Assembly: GCA_013359125.1 (NCBI GenBank)
Contig: JABWCR010000006.1
Location: 76,643-111,460, forward strand
Direction of reading: 5' to 3'
DNA length: 34,818 nt
From: Armatimonadota bacterium
Lineage (GTDB): Bacteria > Armatimonadota > Fimbriimonadia > Fimbriimonadales > GBS-DC
Shown here: in pieces, positions 12,730-34,818 of the stretch
How the letters are laid out: every line of letters begins with the position of its first letter
Position numbering within the stretch: the first letter of the stretch is position 1
Translations under genes and position numbers: made by a program
The notes under the pieces: model-generated
Told to the model about the DNA's origin: nothing
Database searches by the model: none
What the model saw: the letters and a program-made list of their open reading frames with translations, nothing else

Positions 12730-14460
12730 CTACCAGTTTCGAAGAACGATGTCGGGGCCCAAGGGCGGGCAGTCCCAATCGTCCGGATAGCTAGCCGAAC
12801 CGGTCTTTCGAAGGTGCACGCCGTACCAGACCACGAGGTTCTGGTTGACCGTGCTCTCTCGATTGGCGAAGCTATCGATCTTGATTTGCGTGCCGCTCTG
12901 TCCGGTGCCGCTGTCGTCGATCTGCTGATCGGTAGTGCCGTTGCCGGCATATCGAAGCACCCAGAGGTCGCCCTTGCCATAGTCGACGGGGCTGGTGCCT
13001 GGCCAGTTGGTGTAGCCGTCCTTCTCGTTCGGGATGATCTCGGCCACTTCGCCGCTGGCGGTGTTGCGCACTCGCCAGCGCCGGTCGACGCCTGGCCGCC
13101 GAAATCGCTTGCTCTCCATTCGGATCAGATCCCATCGAGCGCGCGGGTCGCGGGTAGGGTTGTCAATCTCCTCGACCACGTGGTCGGCTGTGCCGTTCAG
13201 GTCAAAGTCAAGTCGCCAATAGGCGTGGTGGGTTCGACCCGAGCAGACGCACGACTGCATGGTGTAGCCATACTTAAAGCGCGGTCGGATGATGCCGTCG
13301 CGATGGAAGCGCCACTCCATGATGTAGCGGTACCAACCAGCGGAGCACTCGCACATCATCACCAGTTCGTTGCCGCTTTCATAAACGCCGACTCCGGTGA
13401 AGTTGCCTGCATCGTTCCGCACGTCGCAAATATTGGTCGAGGGGTTGTTCGACCAGCGGTAGCCTGGACCTAAGTCTGTGCCCGTGGCGGTGATACAGTT
13501 CTCGTTGTACATCCAGTCTCGGTAGGGTCCGCAGGCGTTGCCGTCGTAGTAGACGTTCAGTACGGGCAGTCCGCCTCGCTTGAGCACGCGCTTGCCCATA
13601 TAATCGACCGAGAAGATCTCTATCCCGCTTCCGCTGCCTCCCGAGGAGGACGACGGTCGCGTGGTATTGATGCGCCAGACGGGATTGCCGGTGGGCCACT
13701 CGATCCAGATGTTGCCAGCCAGGCCTCGGCCGTTCGATCCGCACGCGCTGGACGGCGCGCCGCACGCCATGATGAAGGCATCGCCAAACTCCACCGTATT
13801 GTTGACCAGATCGACCCAATAGACCGCATGATCGGGGTTGCCGGACAGGATGCCAGCGTCGTTAAAGTGCACGATGACCGAAACGGTTCGGTTGACGGGA
13901 GGCTTGCCGCCGATGGGCATTGCGTCAAATCTACGCTTGACTCCGGGCTCGGCGACGTAGTCGAGAACCGAAGGCATTCCTCTCGATGTCGTCGCGCGGC
14001 CTGTGCGGAGCGGCTCGCCAAACTTAGGATGCTGTCGGACGATCTCGACGGCATGGAGGTGCTCCTCCCAGCTCGATTCGGGCTGATGCTCCATGCGCTT
14101 GACTTCGACGTTTCGAGCGCGGGGGAAATCCGCCATGACCTCGAGGGGCTCGTTGCGGTCGTAATTGTAAATCTGTAGCCGATAGGCGCCGGGCGTAACC
14201 GGCAGTCCATTGCGGTCGAACGTCATTTCGGGGATGATCTGCACCACCCGATAGCGAGCGTTCTCTAAAGACTTCAGTTTGGGATGTCGCACAATGCCTG
14301 CGACGAAGTCCTCGATCATTCGGTCGGTTACTTCATAAGCCAGACCTGCCGAGATAGTTGTGCCGCGCACTGGCATCAAGTTTTCGCCAGTGGGGCGCAA
14401 CGGCAACCGCATCGGGTTCTCGGTTTTCAAACCTTGCAACGCCCTGTACATCCGTTTCAT
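12730..14460 (-). CDS. Copper amine oxidase-like protein with degraded cofactor motifs
   Basis: The 576-aa product follows the copper amine oxidase fold in order: an N2/N3-like region (about 40-200), then the catalytic domain with DYMGKRVLKR (286-295), GWYRYIMEW (375-383), WRLDFDLNG (415-423) and LVVWYGVHLRK (542-552). In true enzymes the cofactor tyrosine lies in T-x-x-N-Y-D/E; here Y377 is kept but the flanking residues are W and R. The first copper pair HxH is reduced to one aligned histidine (H411), with H412 next to it, while the third, H549, is kept. The catalytic aspartate position appears as N (MYNE). No signal peptide is seen. AGGAGG lies 11 nt before the ATG. It may be a non-enzymatic relative or use a different chemistry. 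It has a strong terminator and stands as a single gene. Confidence 0.75.
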   Translation of the reverse strand: MKRMYRALQGLKTENPMRLPLRPTGENLMPVRGTTISAGLAYEVTDRMIEDFVAGIVRHPKLKSLENARYRVVQIIPEMTFDRNGLPVTPGAYRLQIYNYDRNEPLEVMADFPRARNVEVKRMEHQPESSWEEHLHAVEIVRQHPKFGEPLRTGRATTSRGMPSVLDYVAEPGVKRRFDAMPIGGKPPVNRTVSVIVHFNDAGILSGNPDHAVYWVDLVNNTVEFGDAFIMACGAPSSACGSNGRGLAGNIWIEWPTGNPVWRINTTRPSSSSGGSGSGIEIFSVDYMGKRVLKRGGLPVLNVYYDGNACGPYRDWMYNENCITATGTDLGPGYRWSNNPSTNICDVRNDAGNFTGVGVYESGNELVMMCECSAGWYRYIMEWRFHRDGIIRPRFKYGYTMQSCVCSGRTHHAYWRLDFDLNGTADHVVEEIDNPTRDPRARWDLIRMESKRFRRPGVDRRWRVRNTASGEVAEIIPNEKDGYTNWPGTSPVDYGKGDLWVLRYAGNGTTDQQIDDSGTGQSGTQIKIDSFANRESTVNQNLVVWYGVHLRKTGSASYPDDWDCPPLGPDIVLRNW

Positions 14461-17371: not shown

Positions 17372-18565
17372 ATGTTCGCAGGCAAGAAAGTCTGCCTGGG
17401 CGTTACGGGCAGCATCGCCGCCTACAAAAGCGCAGACTTAGCGCGGGAGCTGATGCGTCAAGGGGCAGAAGTTACGGTCGTCCTGACCAAGTCCGCTGCC
17501 AAACTGATCGCTCCCGCCACATTTGAAGCGCTGACCGGACGCCCTGTAACGGTCGATGCGTTCGATGAGCCTTTTGCTGGCAAGATCGCGCACATCGAGC
17601 TGGCGCAAGGGTCGGATTTGATCGTCGTGGCGCCTTGTACGGCAGATTTTTTGGCTAAGATGGCTCATGGCTTGGCGGACGACATGCTCAGCACCGTACT
17701 CTTGGCAACAGACGCGCCGGTGTCGGTCGCGCCTGCAATGAACCCGAAGATGCTCGACCACCCAGCGACCCAGGCCAATATTGCGACCCTCAAATCGCGC
17801 GGCGTTCAGTTCGTCGAGCCGGCCTACGGCCTGATGGCATGCGGCGACGAGGGTTACGGCAAAATGGCCGACGTGGCGGACATCATCGCGATAGCGCGAG
17901 CGATCTTGACTGGCAAGAGAGATTTTGAAGGCGAGCAGGTTCTGGTTACCGCGGGGCCGACGCACGAGCCGATAGACCCTGTGCGGCATATCGCCAACCG
18001 AAGCAGCGGGAAGATGGGCGTTGCCTTAGCCGAGGCGGCCAGAGATCGCGGCGCAACCGTTGTGCTTGTGCTGGGCCCGTCGCCTTTGAAAGACCCTATC
18101 GGCGCAGAGACGATCCGCGTAACAACAGCCAAAGAGATGTTGCGAGCGGTCGAATCGAAGTGGGACTCATGCTCCCTTTTCATCAGCGCTGCAGCGGTCG
18201 CCGACTATCGACCGGTCGAGTCGCTGCCCGACAAACGCAAGAAAGAAGAGGGCAGTTGGACCCTGAAGTTAGAGCCGAATCCGGACATTTTGCAGCACAT
18301 GGCCAAGAAGAAAGGCGATCGCATTTTCGTCGGGTTTGCCGCCGAGACTAAATCGGTCAAGAAGAATGCAAAGGAAAAGCTGACCAAGAAGAGTCTTGAT
18401 CTGATCGTCGCCAACGATGTGAGTCAAAAGGGAATCGGGTTCGACTCGGACGATAATCAGGTTATCCTATTGAGCAGGGACGGTCAGGAGAAGGCCTCGC
18501 CCAAGATGTCCAAGCGGGCGATTGCCGACTTCATTCTAGACGCCGTCTCGGGGATGTTGAAATGA
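17372..18565 (+). CDS. coaBC: Bifunctional phosphopantothenoylcysteine decarboxylase/synthetase
   Basis: CoaBC joins cysteine to phosphopantothenate and decarboxylates the product on the way to coenzyme A. The 397-aa length is typical. The N-terminal flavoprotein decarboxylase half shows GSIAAYKS (13-20), the active histidine H74 in AHIELAQ, PAMN (121-124) and the catalytic C157 in MACGDEGYGKM. The C-terminal synthetase half shows ITAGPTHEPIDPVR-like residues, NRSSGKMG, AAVADYRP and the KKxxxxLI-type lysine region. The end overlaps the next gene as ATGA. Confidence 0.96.
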   Translation: MFAGKKVCLGVTGSIAAYKSADLARELMRQGAEVTVVLTKSAAKLIAPATFEALTGRPVTVDAFDEPFAGKIAHIELAQGSDLIVVAPCTADFLAKMAHGLADDMLSTVLLATDAPVSVAPAMNPKMLDHPATQANIATLKSRGVQFVEPAYGLMACGDEGYGKMADVADIIAIARAILTGKRDFEGEQVLVTAGPTHEPIDPVRHIANRSSGKMGVALAEAARDRGATVVLVLGPSPLKDPIGAETIRVTTAKEMLRAVESKWDSCSLFISAAAVADYRPVESLPDKRKKEEGSWTLKLEPNPDILQHMAKKKGDRIFVGFAAETKSVKKNAKEKLTKKSLDLIVANDVSQKGIGFDSDDNQVILLSRDGQEKASPKMSKRAIADFILDAVSGMLK

Positions 18566-20247
18566 AACGCCTCATCTCGCTCGCGCTGGTTTTCATGGTC
18601 GTGCCTCTTTTTGCTCAAAGGGCCAGCGGATGGAACGGTTGGCTCGACCCGGGCGTTTACTTCGAGGTGCTTTCGGGCAGCGGATACAACTCGTTTCAAT
18701 GGGCCCAGCTGAGAGCCGATCAGGACGTCCCGCCCAGAACCGTTCGCTATGGCCATTTGCAAACGGTGCTACTGACGGAAGGCGGCGATGCGTTCGGTCG
18801 AATGGTTCTCTTTTGGAGCGGCTATCAACAGAACGGGGGCGATCGGTCGCAATATTGGCTGCACAATGTCTTGAACGCATCGCCGATCCTGCAGGGCGGA
18901 CGAGCAGGCGCATTGTACGACATGCCTCGACTCATGCAGGTTCGGATTTGGAACGAGCAGCTTTTCTCTTGGCAACCGCGCTACTCGGCCGCAAGCCTCT
19001 ATGTGTCCAATGCGCCGAGCGTCCAACTGGTGGCCGCGCCCGAGCCGCGCTGGACAGACGTTTCTTGGCTCGATATCAATCCTCACAAACCAGGCATTCA
19101 GATCGATCCGAAGTATCTGCCTGATCTGAACTTGGAATGGTCAACGGGCAGCGCTACTGCAAGAAGAACCATGACATCGGTCAAGAAGCTAGTCGGTCGA
19201 AACCAGTATGCGGATGCCAACTTTCCATCGCCGTTCAGGGACGACTTTGGACTGAGGGCGAACGTATCAGTACGTGTAGGCGATCAGCGATTTCCCTGGT
19301 GGCAAGCCTCGCCTTCTTTGCCTTTCTTGCCAGGCGGCCTGATCGAACAGCGCACAATCGTGTCCGAATATGGTTCGACCGCAATCGGGCTGCGTTCGCT
19401 TCCTTTAGGAACGACCATCGCGCTCGCATTCGAGGTTGAAGCGCGGCGCGGCGCATATGACGAACTGGGGCAAGCAATAGAGCCGAACATCGTTCGCGAG
19501 CCGATGGACGATCTTCGAGATGCCGCTTCGCTCAATTTCGACATCCGGGCGCTGACCTATCGCTATTCGGGCGCCTTGAGCGGCGGTGGCGACGTAAGGG
19601 ACGAAGAAGCCGATCCGATCTGCGTTTCAAAGGAAGCGGGCTCGCTGGACATAAGGCTCAACCTCATCGATCTGGGCTTGCCTTACGATGTGCCGGTCGT
19701 CTTTTCTGGCTCGCGCATAGATGCTGAGACGATCGAATGGACGCTCAACGCTCAGCCCAACCTCTGTGTGAACTTAGGCGCATTTGACGCCTTAATCAAG
19801 CGAATCGCGGGCAAACTGAGAGGACGGATCGTAGCCGAGCCGCTTTTCTTCGATCCCCTTTGCAACGCCTTCTTCAACCTTCAGATCACGCCGATAGGCG
19901 GGGACGCCCACAATTGGCTGGACGCAGAGGTGTACGCGCTCTGTTTTGAGTCGTCCATTACCCGCGTCAACGTAACGGCACGATCGATCGACTATCGAGC
20001 TTTGAGCGGAAGTCCGGCAGCGTTCGCCGATCCCCGAGTCTTGTCAAGAGTTGCTCTGGCACAAGCCATCGAGCTCGCGCCGTTCGGAGACATCAATCAG
20101 GACGGTTGCGTGGACGACCAAGACTTAGCCGAATTGCTGGCTGACTTCGGAATGTCTGGCGCTCATCGTTCGGACATCAGCGGCAATGGATTCGTGGACG
20201 ATTACGACCTAGCGATCCTATTGGAGAACTTCGGGCGCGGCTGTTGA
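18562..20247 (+). CDS. Secreted protein with C-terminal dockerin-like EF-hand pair
   Basis: The 561-aa product has a signal peptide (1-19, PLFAQ). The central 500 residues are a beta-rich extracytoplasmic region I do not recognise. It ends in two calcium-loop repeats, DINQDGCVDDQDL (about 511-523) and DISGNGFVDDYDL (about 539-551), each followed by a short helix and a LLxDFG/LLENFG motif, as in type I dockerins. In bacteria without cellulosomes such tails are common on surface proteins and may bind calcium or sort the protein. The second loop has N at position 5 in place of D. The ATG overlaps the coaBC stop by 4 nt, an odd coupling of a housekeeping gene to a secreted protein. Confidence 0.82.
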   Translation: MKRLISLALVFMVVPLFAQRASGWNGWLDPGVYFEVLSGSGYNSFQWAQLRADQDVPPRTVRYGHLQTVLLTEGGDAFGRMVLFWSGYQQNGGDRSQYWLHNVLNASPILQGGRAGALYDMPRLMQVRIWNEQLFSWQPRYSAASLYVSNAPSVQLVAAPEPRWTDVSWLDINPHKPGIQIDPKYLPDLNLEWSTGSATARRTMTSVKKLVGRNQYADANFPSPFRDDFGLRANVSVRVGDQRFPWWQASPSLPFLPGGLIEQRTIVSEYGSTAIGLRSLPLGTTIALAFEVEARRGAYDELGQAIEPNIVREPMDDLRDAASLNFDIRALTYRYSGALSGGGDVRDEEADPICVSKEAGSLDIRLNLIDLGLPYDVPVVFSGSRIDAETIEWTLNAQPNLCVNLGAFDALIKRIAGKLRGRIVAEPLFFDPLCNAFFNLQITPIGGDAHNWLDAEVYALCFESSITRVNVTARSIDYRALSGSPAAFADPRVLSRVALAQAIELAPFGDINQDGCVDDQDLAELLADFGMSGAHRSDISGNGFVDDYDLAILLENFGRGC

Positions 20248-32663: not shown

Positions 32664-33170
32664 TCAATGTCCTAAATCACCGTACAAATCGCCAATCGGG
32701 AGGGCAAGCGTCCGCGCGAGCCGAACACAGTCATAATTGCAATGCGTCTCGATGGCCGAGCCGCCCGCAGGGTCGATCCGCTCCCAAACCCGTCGCCCGA
32801 ACGCATCGTAAGCGGCCTCGTACTCGCCCACGCACGGCGAGCCCGCATAGACCAGATTGCCGCCGTCGTCGTACTCGAAAGCCGTGGTCGAACTGCCGAT
32901 CGTCTCGTAATGCAGCGAGCCGTCCGGGTTGTAGTCCCATTCGTAGCTGCGCGAGGTCGATCCTGCCGTGTCCGCCGCCTCGGCCAAAGCGCCGTCCGCA
33001 TAATAGGCATAGCCGAACGACGCGAAAGGAGAGCCGGTATTGATCTTGTAGCTGAGCGACCCCAGCGACCCCGCCAACTGAGAATCGGCATACGAGGCGG
33101 TTCCATACAGCGTCGCGCCGGTTCCGATGATCGCGTCGATGGATGAGGGACGCCTAGGTATCACGATTGC
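32664..33170 (-). pseudogene. Orphan RHS/YD-repeat core fragment
   Basis: About 165 residues of RHS shell repeat sequence are open here: SYEWDYNPDGSL, TTAFEYDDGGNLVYAG and YEAAYDAFGRRVWERIDP. An in-frame TGA lies just upstream (33171-33173), and the only start is a GTG at 33164 inside the end of the immunity gene, so it lacks the beginning of any RHS gene. It ends before the RHS C-terminal DPxG-type core end. It is GC-rich like the upstream RHS core, unlike the immunity gene between them. I read it as a leftover core piece of an older or duplicated RHS gene and think it is not expressed as a useful protein. Confidence 0.75.
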
Positions 33171-33990
33171 TCATATCGACTTCGTGTGAAACCACGAGGT
33201 CGCTCAGGATGTTCATTCCGAGCCTCAACCCGTGCTTCGCTAGCGCTTCACGGCAACGATCCGAAATCACAATCTGGCCGCGAGAGCCAAACTGAGCAAA
33301 ATCTACTTCTGCTTCGACGGAGTTAAGATCTATTTCTAGGGCCCTCTCCCCCTTAAGCCAAACTTCTCCGCATTCCGGGCATTCCCACCAACAACCTTCT
33401 GCCGAATCGGGCGAAGGCCGACACTGCCCAATAATCACCAGTTCATGCCAGTCCGCAACGCTTGCCGCCGACTCACATTCATACACTAATACCCCACTCA
33501 GTTTTTCTTCAATTATTACACTTAATGCTCGTTGAGATACAATGATATATCCAAGCAATGGACTTCCTATTACATCATACTCTCGAAATATTCTAGACTT
33601 ATTCAAGCGCAACGGGCCGATCCCGCGACTAGGCAGGATCGGGTGTTCCGGCGGGAGATTAAGGGCATCTCTGATCAATCCCGCAATCTCAGCGAATTCA
33701 CGAGGCGTCAATGTCCCAAACCGCTCGACATGGCTCCAAACGTATCGGTCGGCCTCATCGCCAATCTCAAATGCGACTATCTTCAATAGGAACTGAAAAA
33801 TGTCCGAGATGACCTCAAATGGCCTTAATAGTGACTGTATAGCCTTAGAAGGCCGAGCCGGGACGCGTTGACAATTGTATCGGGGGGAAAGCGCACAAGT
33901 TGGACAGTACCTGCGAGGCGTGCACAATATGCTATGATCATGTGAAAGAGGGTCGGGCAATCCGCTTAAGTGGTCGAGTAAATGCACCAT
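33154..33990 (-). CDS. Double-CXXC immunity protein (SitI6-like)
   Basis: The 278-aa product carries two CXXC pairs, RYCPTCA (C29, C32) and ECPECGE (C204, C207), which may bind zinc, and a central RGIGPL segment (about 122-127) followed by SQRALSVIIEEKLSGV and WHELVIIGQCRP. This layout matches the double-CXXCG family known in Myxococcus as immunity partners (SitI6) of TIGR02269/DUF2380 toxins. It follows the toxin tail by 40 nt, as expected for a toxin-immunity pair. The first pair has A in place of the usual G. No signal peptide is seen. The coding sequence is more AT-rich than the rest of the window, a sign of transfer. The exact start is uncertain; no strong ribosome site is seen. Confidence 0.72.
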   Translation of the reverse strand: MVHLLDHLSGLPDPLSHDHSILCTPRRYCPTCALSPRYNCQRVPARPSKAIQSLLRPFEVISDIFQFLLKIVAFEIGDEADRYVWSHVERFGTLTPREFAEIAGLIRDALNLPPEHPILPSRGIGPLRLNKSRIFREYDVIGSPLLGYIIVSQRALSVIIEEKLSGVLVYECESAASVADWHELVIIGQCRPSPDSAEGCWWECPECGEVWLKGERALEIDLNSVEAEVDFAQFGSRGQIVISDRCREALAKHGLRLGMNILSDLVVSHEVDMSNRDT

Positions 33991-34030
33991 GGTCTTTAGC
34001 TATCTCCGTCAAACATCGGACATGTCAATC

Positions 34031-34174
34031 TCACCTTCTCAAGAACTCTTCATACTTGACATCCGTTAGACCAACCTTTTGTAAAAGTTTGCGCAAAAAT
34101 TTCGCCGCATCATCTGGCGTTCTTCCGGGCACCTTAAAGAACTCTTCCCATTGATTATTCCACCATCCTCCCCC
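34031..34174 (-). pseudogene. Out-of-frame tail of the DUF2380-like toxin domain
   Basis: After the toxin frame stops at 34155, the next part of the conserved domain continues in another frame: IGGGWWNNQWEEFFK, then a helical segment (DDAAKFLRKLLQKVGL) and a stop at 34031. In DUF2380 relatives the HxWLHSG motif is followed by GGWWN-type residues and EW..FF in one frame. The break therefore lies in the short stretch between, where the minus strand has GGGGG (34170-34174). Removing one G would join the frames as NRGGWWNNQW. The break may be a decay event, a sequencing slip or a phase switch. Confidence 0.7.
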
Positions 34175-34818
34175 GATTCTCGCCACTATGCAACCATTTA
34201 TGGAAGAAATCGGGAACTCGCAACAAGTACTTATCAATATGTATTCCAATACCCTTGAATTGTTCGCGCAACATCTGAGGAAAAACATGATGTAGTCGAG
34301 TCGTGGCAAGATTTTCCATCGCGCTAGTCCAAGCGTTGGTGGCCCGAATTGACGCATGTTGCCCAAACTGTACTGTCAGGGCGCTAAACTGGCCCCAACA
34401 GATCATCGCCTGCGCAAGATAGCCGTGAGGAGTGCGCGGACTATCAATCGCAGGTAAAGGCGGCTGCAATCCGCTCGGATCGGCCAGATTGACAGGATCG
34501 TTTCCGCAATACCGATAGAGGTTCGGGTCGCCGGAGGATTGGCCGATGGGGTCTCGTTGCAGCCAGCGGGCGGTCCGAGGGTCGTATTCGCGAGCGTCGA
34601 CGTGGTAGAGACCGGTGAAGGGAACGTGCTGGCAGCCCGCCGCCGCGTTCCATTTGAACAGATTGGGCGTCGAGCCGTAAGACCCCGGCAAAACATTGCC
34701 CCAGGCATCGTACTCGTAGTAGTCCGTTGCCGAACCCGTGCTGTCAACCATCGCCCGCGCATGGCCGCGAGCGTCCAAAACATAATACCTCGCGTTCGCG
34801 CCGTTCTGCAAATCGACC
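34155..34818 (-). CDS. RHS protein C-terminus with DUF2380/SitA6-like toxin domain, truncated by window edge
   Basis: The frame is open to the right edge, so most of the RHS shell lies outside. The visible part has YD repeats (TDYYEYDAWGNVLPGSYG), the conserved RHS core end (REYDPRTARWLQRDPIG, NLYRYCGNDPVNLADPSG), then a variable C-terminal toxin region. That region ends with LHHVFPQ (HH codons at 34287-34292), GIHIDKYLLRVP and HKWLHSG, which match DUF2380/TIGR02269 toxins and suggest a histidine-based nuclease-like site. RHS proteins deliver such tips into neighbouring cells. The frame closes early at 34155 owing to a one-base shift. The toxin part is AT-rich while the core is GC-rich. Confidence 0.83.
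   Translation of the reverse strand, partial: VDLQNGANARYYVLDARGHARAMVDSTGSATDYYEYDAWGNVLPGSYGSTPNLFKWNAAAGCQHVPFTGLYHVDAREYDPRTARWLQRDPIGQSSGDPNLYRYCGNDPVNLADPSGLQPPLPAIDSPRTPHGYLAQAMICWGQFSALTVQFGQHASIRATNAWTSAMENLATTRLHHVFPQMLREQFKGIGIHIDKYLLRVPDFFHKWLHSGENRGRMVE

Follow-up and report, generated by a model that had tools for sequence, protein, structure and literature searches.

A distant copper amine oxidase relative from Fimbriimonadales that may have given up copper and topaquinone

The window analyzed here, a stretch of 34,818 nucleotides of Armatimonadota DNA taken as a whole, carries an open reading frame that raises a simple question: can a protein that resembles copper amine oxidases (CAOs), and in which most of the catalytic residues appear to have been replaced, still be an oxidase, and if not, what might it have become? 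The gene is as follows.

Positions 12730..14460, minus strand: CAO-fold protein of 576 aa (ORF calls, Pfam PF01179, hhalign, Foldseek)

The ORF opens with an ATG that matches the starts of its relatives in the alignment, and contains no internal stop. It is present in one copy in the 2.8 Mb source genome, in which a Pfam model search found no canonical CAO, and occurs in 16 of the 18 genomes of the same family; those relatives that public records name come from Fimbriimonadales (Armatimonadota) assemblies. A search of the genome contigs with the window protein as single query gave no matches, and an alignment-based scan of these contigs gave 15. No relatives were found among the PHROGs, phages and viral contigs searched. 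We note that the window also encodes, at 18562-20247, a secreted-looking protein of 561 aa with no Pfam match and with C-terminal dockerin-like calcium-binding repeats (GDINQDGCVDDQDL, DISGNGFVDDYDL). The end of the window (32664-34818) is occupied by Rhs/YD-repeat gene fragments with other ORFs in between, among them a Gmx_para_CXXCG-like ORF at 33154-33990.

The product of ORF 12730-14460 is a distant relative of CAOs, with homology far beyond chance. Pfam recognized the CAO catalytic domain PF01179 as its sole domain (E 4e-6), with a score of 26.4 bits that falls narrowly below the 27-bit cut-off; relatives L016, L024, L036 and L045 pass it. When an alignment of 11 divergent proteins was compared by hhalign to one of 7 canonical CAOs (from Armatimonadota and from the phylum to which the L036 genome belongs), the two matched across 425 columns with an E-value of 5.5e-20, and the match takes in the N-terminal D3-like region. 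A profile of the divergent clade matched Arthrobacter phenylethylamine oxidase among PDB sequences (2.5e-6), and phmmer with the window protein alone found no match there. The predicted model has a mean pLDDT of 58, with a better catalytic core, and its top 50 PDB matches in Foldseek are all CAOs (E about 1e-15 to 1e-13, probability 1.00). The model is poor in places, which keeps the TM-scores to CAOs low (0.34-0.40 on the query), and the fold was called from Foldseek ranking and E-values rather than from model geometry. For a Planctomycetes relative, whose predicted structure is poor (pLDDT 49), the Foldseek matches were still CAOs. The alignment to the CAO catalytic domain on which the original prediction was built is thus borne out by Pfam, hhalign, the PDB profile match and Foldseek, and the structure prediction that it proposed as a check agrees, with best E-values of about 1e-15.

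In order to follow the active site, we compiled a residue table of 27 sequences, made up of 19 divergent ones (12 full-length Fimbriimonadales proteins and 7 from outside this order) and 8 canonical CAOs. CAO copper is bound by three histidines, described as strictly conserved (PMC3382800), and the corresponding positions of the window protein are the following.

Positions 13225..13236, minus strand: R409-T-H411-H412, remnant of the H-x-H pair, with Arg for the first His (alignments)
Positions 12805..12807, minus strand: K552, at the third copper-His position, W+7 (MAFFT, hhalign, hmmsearch)
Positions 12814..12816, minus strand: H549, at W+4, in a column of canonical Gly/Ala/Ser (hhalign, residue table)

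In place of the triad the protein thus has R409, H411 and K552, with H411 as the sole ligand left, and the earlier claim that one histidine of the first HxH pair is kept holds for this residue. Position 409 is His in all seven outside divergent members and in all eight canonical CAOs; the third-ligand column is Lys in 12/12 full-length Fimbriimonadales proteins and His in all others. It had also been proposed that H549 is the third ligand, which would leave two of the three copper histidines. The ligand column is three residues away from H549, a distance that a local strand shift could conceivably bridge, but this assignment is improbable: the ungapped W-Y-x5-H anchoring, hhalign, hmmsearch to solved CAOs and MAFFT all give K552. 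In addition, W+4 and W+7 are both His in most outside members, and in L098 only W+7 is (Thr at the 549 position, His at the 552 position). H549 was rejected as a kept third ligand, since hhalign and the residue table place K552 there.

The cofactor site and the catalytic base are altered as well.

Positions 13324..13344, minus strand: S373-A-G-W376-Y377-R378-Y379, replacing T-x-x-N-Y-D/E-Y, in which the first Tyr is the TPQ precursor (four alignments)
Positions 13546..13548, minus strand: Y305, equivalent of the VPYGDP Tyr (HPAO-1 Tyr305), invariant in the 27 sequences
Positions 13501..13506, minus strand: N319 and E320; N319 stands opposite the base Asp in one alignment, and E320 does not vary within the divergent clade

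Only the Tyr of the T-x-x-N-Y-D/E motif is retained: Y377 is present in 27/27 sequences, and the W-Y-R in which it sits (Trp for Asn, Arg for Asp/Glu) shows no variation among the 19 divergent ones. The S-A-G-W-Y377-R initially read at this site stands. The base Asp is also missing, as had been stated; its reported replacement by Asn depends on the alignment, one giving N319 and the other T324. E320, one residue off the base column in one alignment, could be a displaced base.

A working amine oxidase that forms TPQ in an unusual sequence context would fit the retention of Tyr377, Tyr305 (whose HPAO-1 counterpart hydrogen-bonds TPQ O4; PMC3382800) and one copper His. It would, however, have to function with Arg and Lys for two of the three copper ligands and without the base Asp, the N and the D/E of the motif, and in known CAOs several such substitutions, taken singly, leave almost no biogenesis or catalysis or greatly reduce its rate. 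In HPAO-1, Asn404Ala yields only 5-10% TPQ and Glu406Gln makes biogenesis tenfold slower, and when the base Asp of ECAO was changed in twelve ways, Glu was the sole active variant (PMC3382800); in AGAO, N381A lowers the rate of TPQ biogenesis 180-fold and kcat 160-fold (PMC9491219). Since the window protein departs from CAOs at two copper ligands, on both sides of the Tyr and at the base, amine oxidase activity is very unlikely.

R409, K552 and the altered motif are fixed in Fimbriimonadales, being shared by 12/12 full-length copies, and partial copies carry the same residues; relatives with the same substitutions, for which a search had been suggested, therefore exist. As these substitutions are common to the whole clade, they are not sequencing errors. 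Pairwise dN/dS values of 0.06-0.25 within Fimbriimonadales indicate purifying selection, and thus a gene in use. The loss of catalytic residues might in itself suggest gene decay, or an error of sequencing or assembly, but this has next to no likelihood in view of full-length ORFs in independent assemblies of six genera and of these same dN/dS values, which refute it for the family.

Seven divergent relatives lie outside Fimbriimonadales: Armatimonadota G211, L036, L097, L098, G498, Variovorax sp. WDL1 and Nonomuraea. L036, L097 and L098 come from three related Planctomycetes-side genomes, and the Variovorax sp. WDL1 copies are on plasmids. Where annotated, these A-G-W-Y-R-Y relatives, Nonomuraea gerenzanensis included, are called "hypothetical". 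All seven combine W-Y-R with the full His triad (HxHH and W-Y-x5-H). In a maximum-likelihood tree built with the motif columns left out, the divergent A-G-W-Y-R-Y clade was monophyletic with 100/100 support and the Fimbriimonadales clade was recovered with 100/99; the arrangement of the seven outside relatives, as a sister clade or as a grade, is weakly supported (79/52). The motif state and the ligand state each require one change on this tree. Since W-Y-R coexists with an intact His triad, motif change and ligand loss are separate steps, and the change in the cofactor motif is older and wider than the loss of copper ligands. We also observed that genome G211 carries both divergent CAO-like and canonical CAO genes (L016, L041), the canonical one with one in-frame stop, and that in Variovorax sp. 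WDL1 (L045:8037-9842) the divergent gene, with copper His intact, precedes a galactose oxidase-like gene; galactose oxidase belongs to another copper radical oxidase family.

The neighbourhood of the gene points to a partner. In four genera, L022, L023, L024 and L026, a cytochrome gene ends about 14-65 bases ahead of the CAO-like start; the Fimbriimonadales cytochrome carries an fn3 domain, five CxxCH motifs and what looks like an export signal. A homologous pentahaem cytochrome directly follows the CAO-like gene in L097 (after about 70 bases) and L098 (after about 24 bases), and follows it with one gene between in L036; the Planctomycetes-side protein is 38% identical to that of Fimbriimonadales.

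L022:6067-7983: pentahaem cytochrome c gene
L023:6126-7982: pentahaem cytochrome c gene
L024:6123-7976: pentahaem cytochrome c gene
L026:5749-7932: pentahaem cytochrome c gene
L036:4614-6212: pentahaem cytochrome c gene
L097:2-2062: pentahaem cytochrome c gene
L098:8759-10789: pentahaem cytochrome c gene

The reversed gene order between the two groups suggests that the link between CAO-like and cytochrome genes is a real functional one. All 13 cytochrome-bearing genomes of the family are among the 16 with the CAO-like gene, and the 2 genomes without this gene also lack the cytochrome; this co-occurrence alone is weak (about 0.065, calculated by hand), with just 2 gene-lacking genomes, both incomplete. 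Members of the largest genus have the two genes at separate places in the genome, and in the window genome no cytochrome homologue was found with the query that finds it in 13 family members. A homologue of an inositol-monophosphatase-like gene located near the window gene adjoins the cytochrome gene in L023, which indicates that the neighbourhoods are related. By eye, Fimbriimonadales CAO-like proteins show no signal peptide, and upstream stop codons in several copies leave no room for one; the Planctomycetes-side proteins seem to have one. The Fimbriimonadales protein thus appears, as judged by eye, to be cytosolic, though the adjacent cytochrome appears exported.

The conserved cysteines of the divergent proteins include the following.

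Positions 13243..13251, minus strand: C404-V-C406, just ahead of the H-x-H position; a feature that the divergent clade conserves and canonical CAOs lack
Positions 13531..13533, minus strand: C310, in the clade-specific insertion ACGPYRDW; canonical CAOs are gapped here and Nonomuraea has Thr

The conserved set comprises C233, C310, C322, C345, C372, C404 and C406, and no signal peptide is visible in the protein. Nonomuraea keeps C406 and not C404, and the joint absence of C233, C310 and C404 from its protein suggests that these three may pair or share one site.

These residues bring forward the main rival to a loss of metal, a rebuilt site in which H411, H549, H412 and the C404/C406 CxC would bind copper or another metal, the protein being a redox partner of the cytochrome or of another acceptor. 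H411, H549, C404 and C406 are indeed invariant in the full-length Fimbriimonadales set, conserved Tyr377, Tyr305, Glu320 and several Cys would also fit a metal or redox site, and the cytochrome gene is adjoining in four genomes of the family. We nevertheless consider it unlikely, though well ahead of a working oxidase. C404, C406 and H549 are also found in most relatives with the full His triad, and thus did not arise as a replacement for it, which tells against the other metal site that the original prediction had offered. Moreover, all other Fimbriimonadales members have Asn in place of H412, L098 has Thr in place of H549, and the window genome lacks this cytochrome gene.

We therefore favour, with a probability of roughly 60%, a reading of the window protein as a copper-free, topaquinone-free pseudo-oxidase in a CAO fold. 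The first suggestion made for this locus, a non-oxidase that keeps the fold, gains support from the replaced ligands, motif and base, from their fixation in the clade and from purifying selection. In such a pseudo-oxidase the active-site cavity would no longer bind copper and Tyr377 would no longer be turned into a quinone, while Arg409 and Lys552 would place positive charge at the former copper location. Together with Arg378, H411, Y377 and Y305 they could line a pocket that accepts an anionic group, whether from a ligand or from a partner protein; the window protein would act through binding and not amine oxidation. Its ancestor was probably a copper-binding redox protein that may have passed electrons to the adjacent pentahaem cytochrome c in some lineages, the window's lineage presumably having lost the cytochrome gene later. 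Retention of the cytochrome by most Fimbriimonadales genera fits poorly with a complete loss of redox function.

The clade is an unnamed branch of the CAO family. It departs from one CAO feature described as strictly conserved, the N-Y-D/E motif, and its Fimbriimonadales branch departs from another, the copper His. A literature search, with most subscription journals outside its scope, found no description of such a clade, and one on catalytically dead CAOs returned no relevant match. The series from oxidase to W-Y-R with copper ligands, and then to W-Y-R without them, is a natural stepwise one, and would allow tests of what a self-made quinone cofactor requires. The wider clade, with its copper ligands and cytochrome partner, is the more interesting result, and the pentahaem cytochrome link suggests an acceptor other than oxygen. 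Tentatively, the A-G-W-Y-R-Y clade might represent copper-tyrosine redox proteins of a new type in the CAO fold, which combine three-His copper with W-Y-R and pass electrons to a pentahaem cytochrome c instead of O2. Its Fimbriimonadales branch, the window protein included, would later have swapped copper for Arg and Lys and kept the fold for another task.

When compared to the CAOs AGAO, ECAO and HPAO-1, the window protein shares the fold, the N-terminal D3-like region, the cofactor Tyr, the Tyr305 equivalent, the second His of H-x-H and the C-terminal W-Y strand. It differs in having W-Y-R for N-Y-D/E, Arg and Lys for the first and third copper His and no base Asp, in the added ACGPYRDW Cys insertion and CxC, and in an identity of about 20% or below. 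With its A-G-W-Y-R-Y relatives it has in common membership of a clade with 100/100 support, W-Y-R, E320, C406, Y377 and Y305; unlike the window protein, they keep three copper His, and the Planctomycetes ones appear to carry signal peptides. Cytochrome-coupled quinoprotein amine dehydrogenases have other folds and other cofactors (TTQ, CTQ), and may serve as an analogy for the wider clade only, in which a possible quinone or tyrosyl redox protein would be paired with a multihaem cytochrome.
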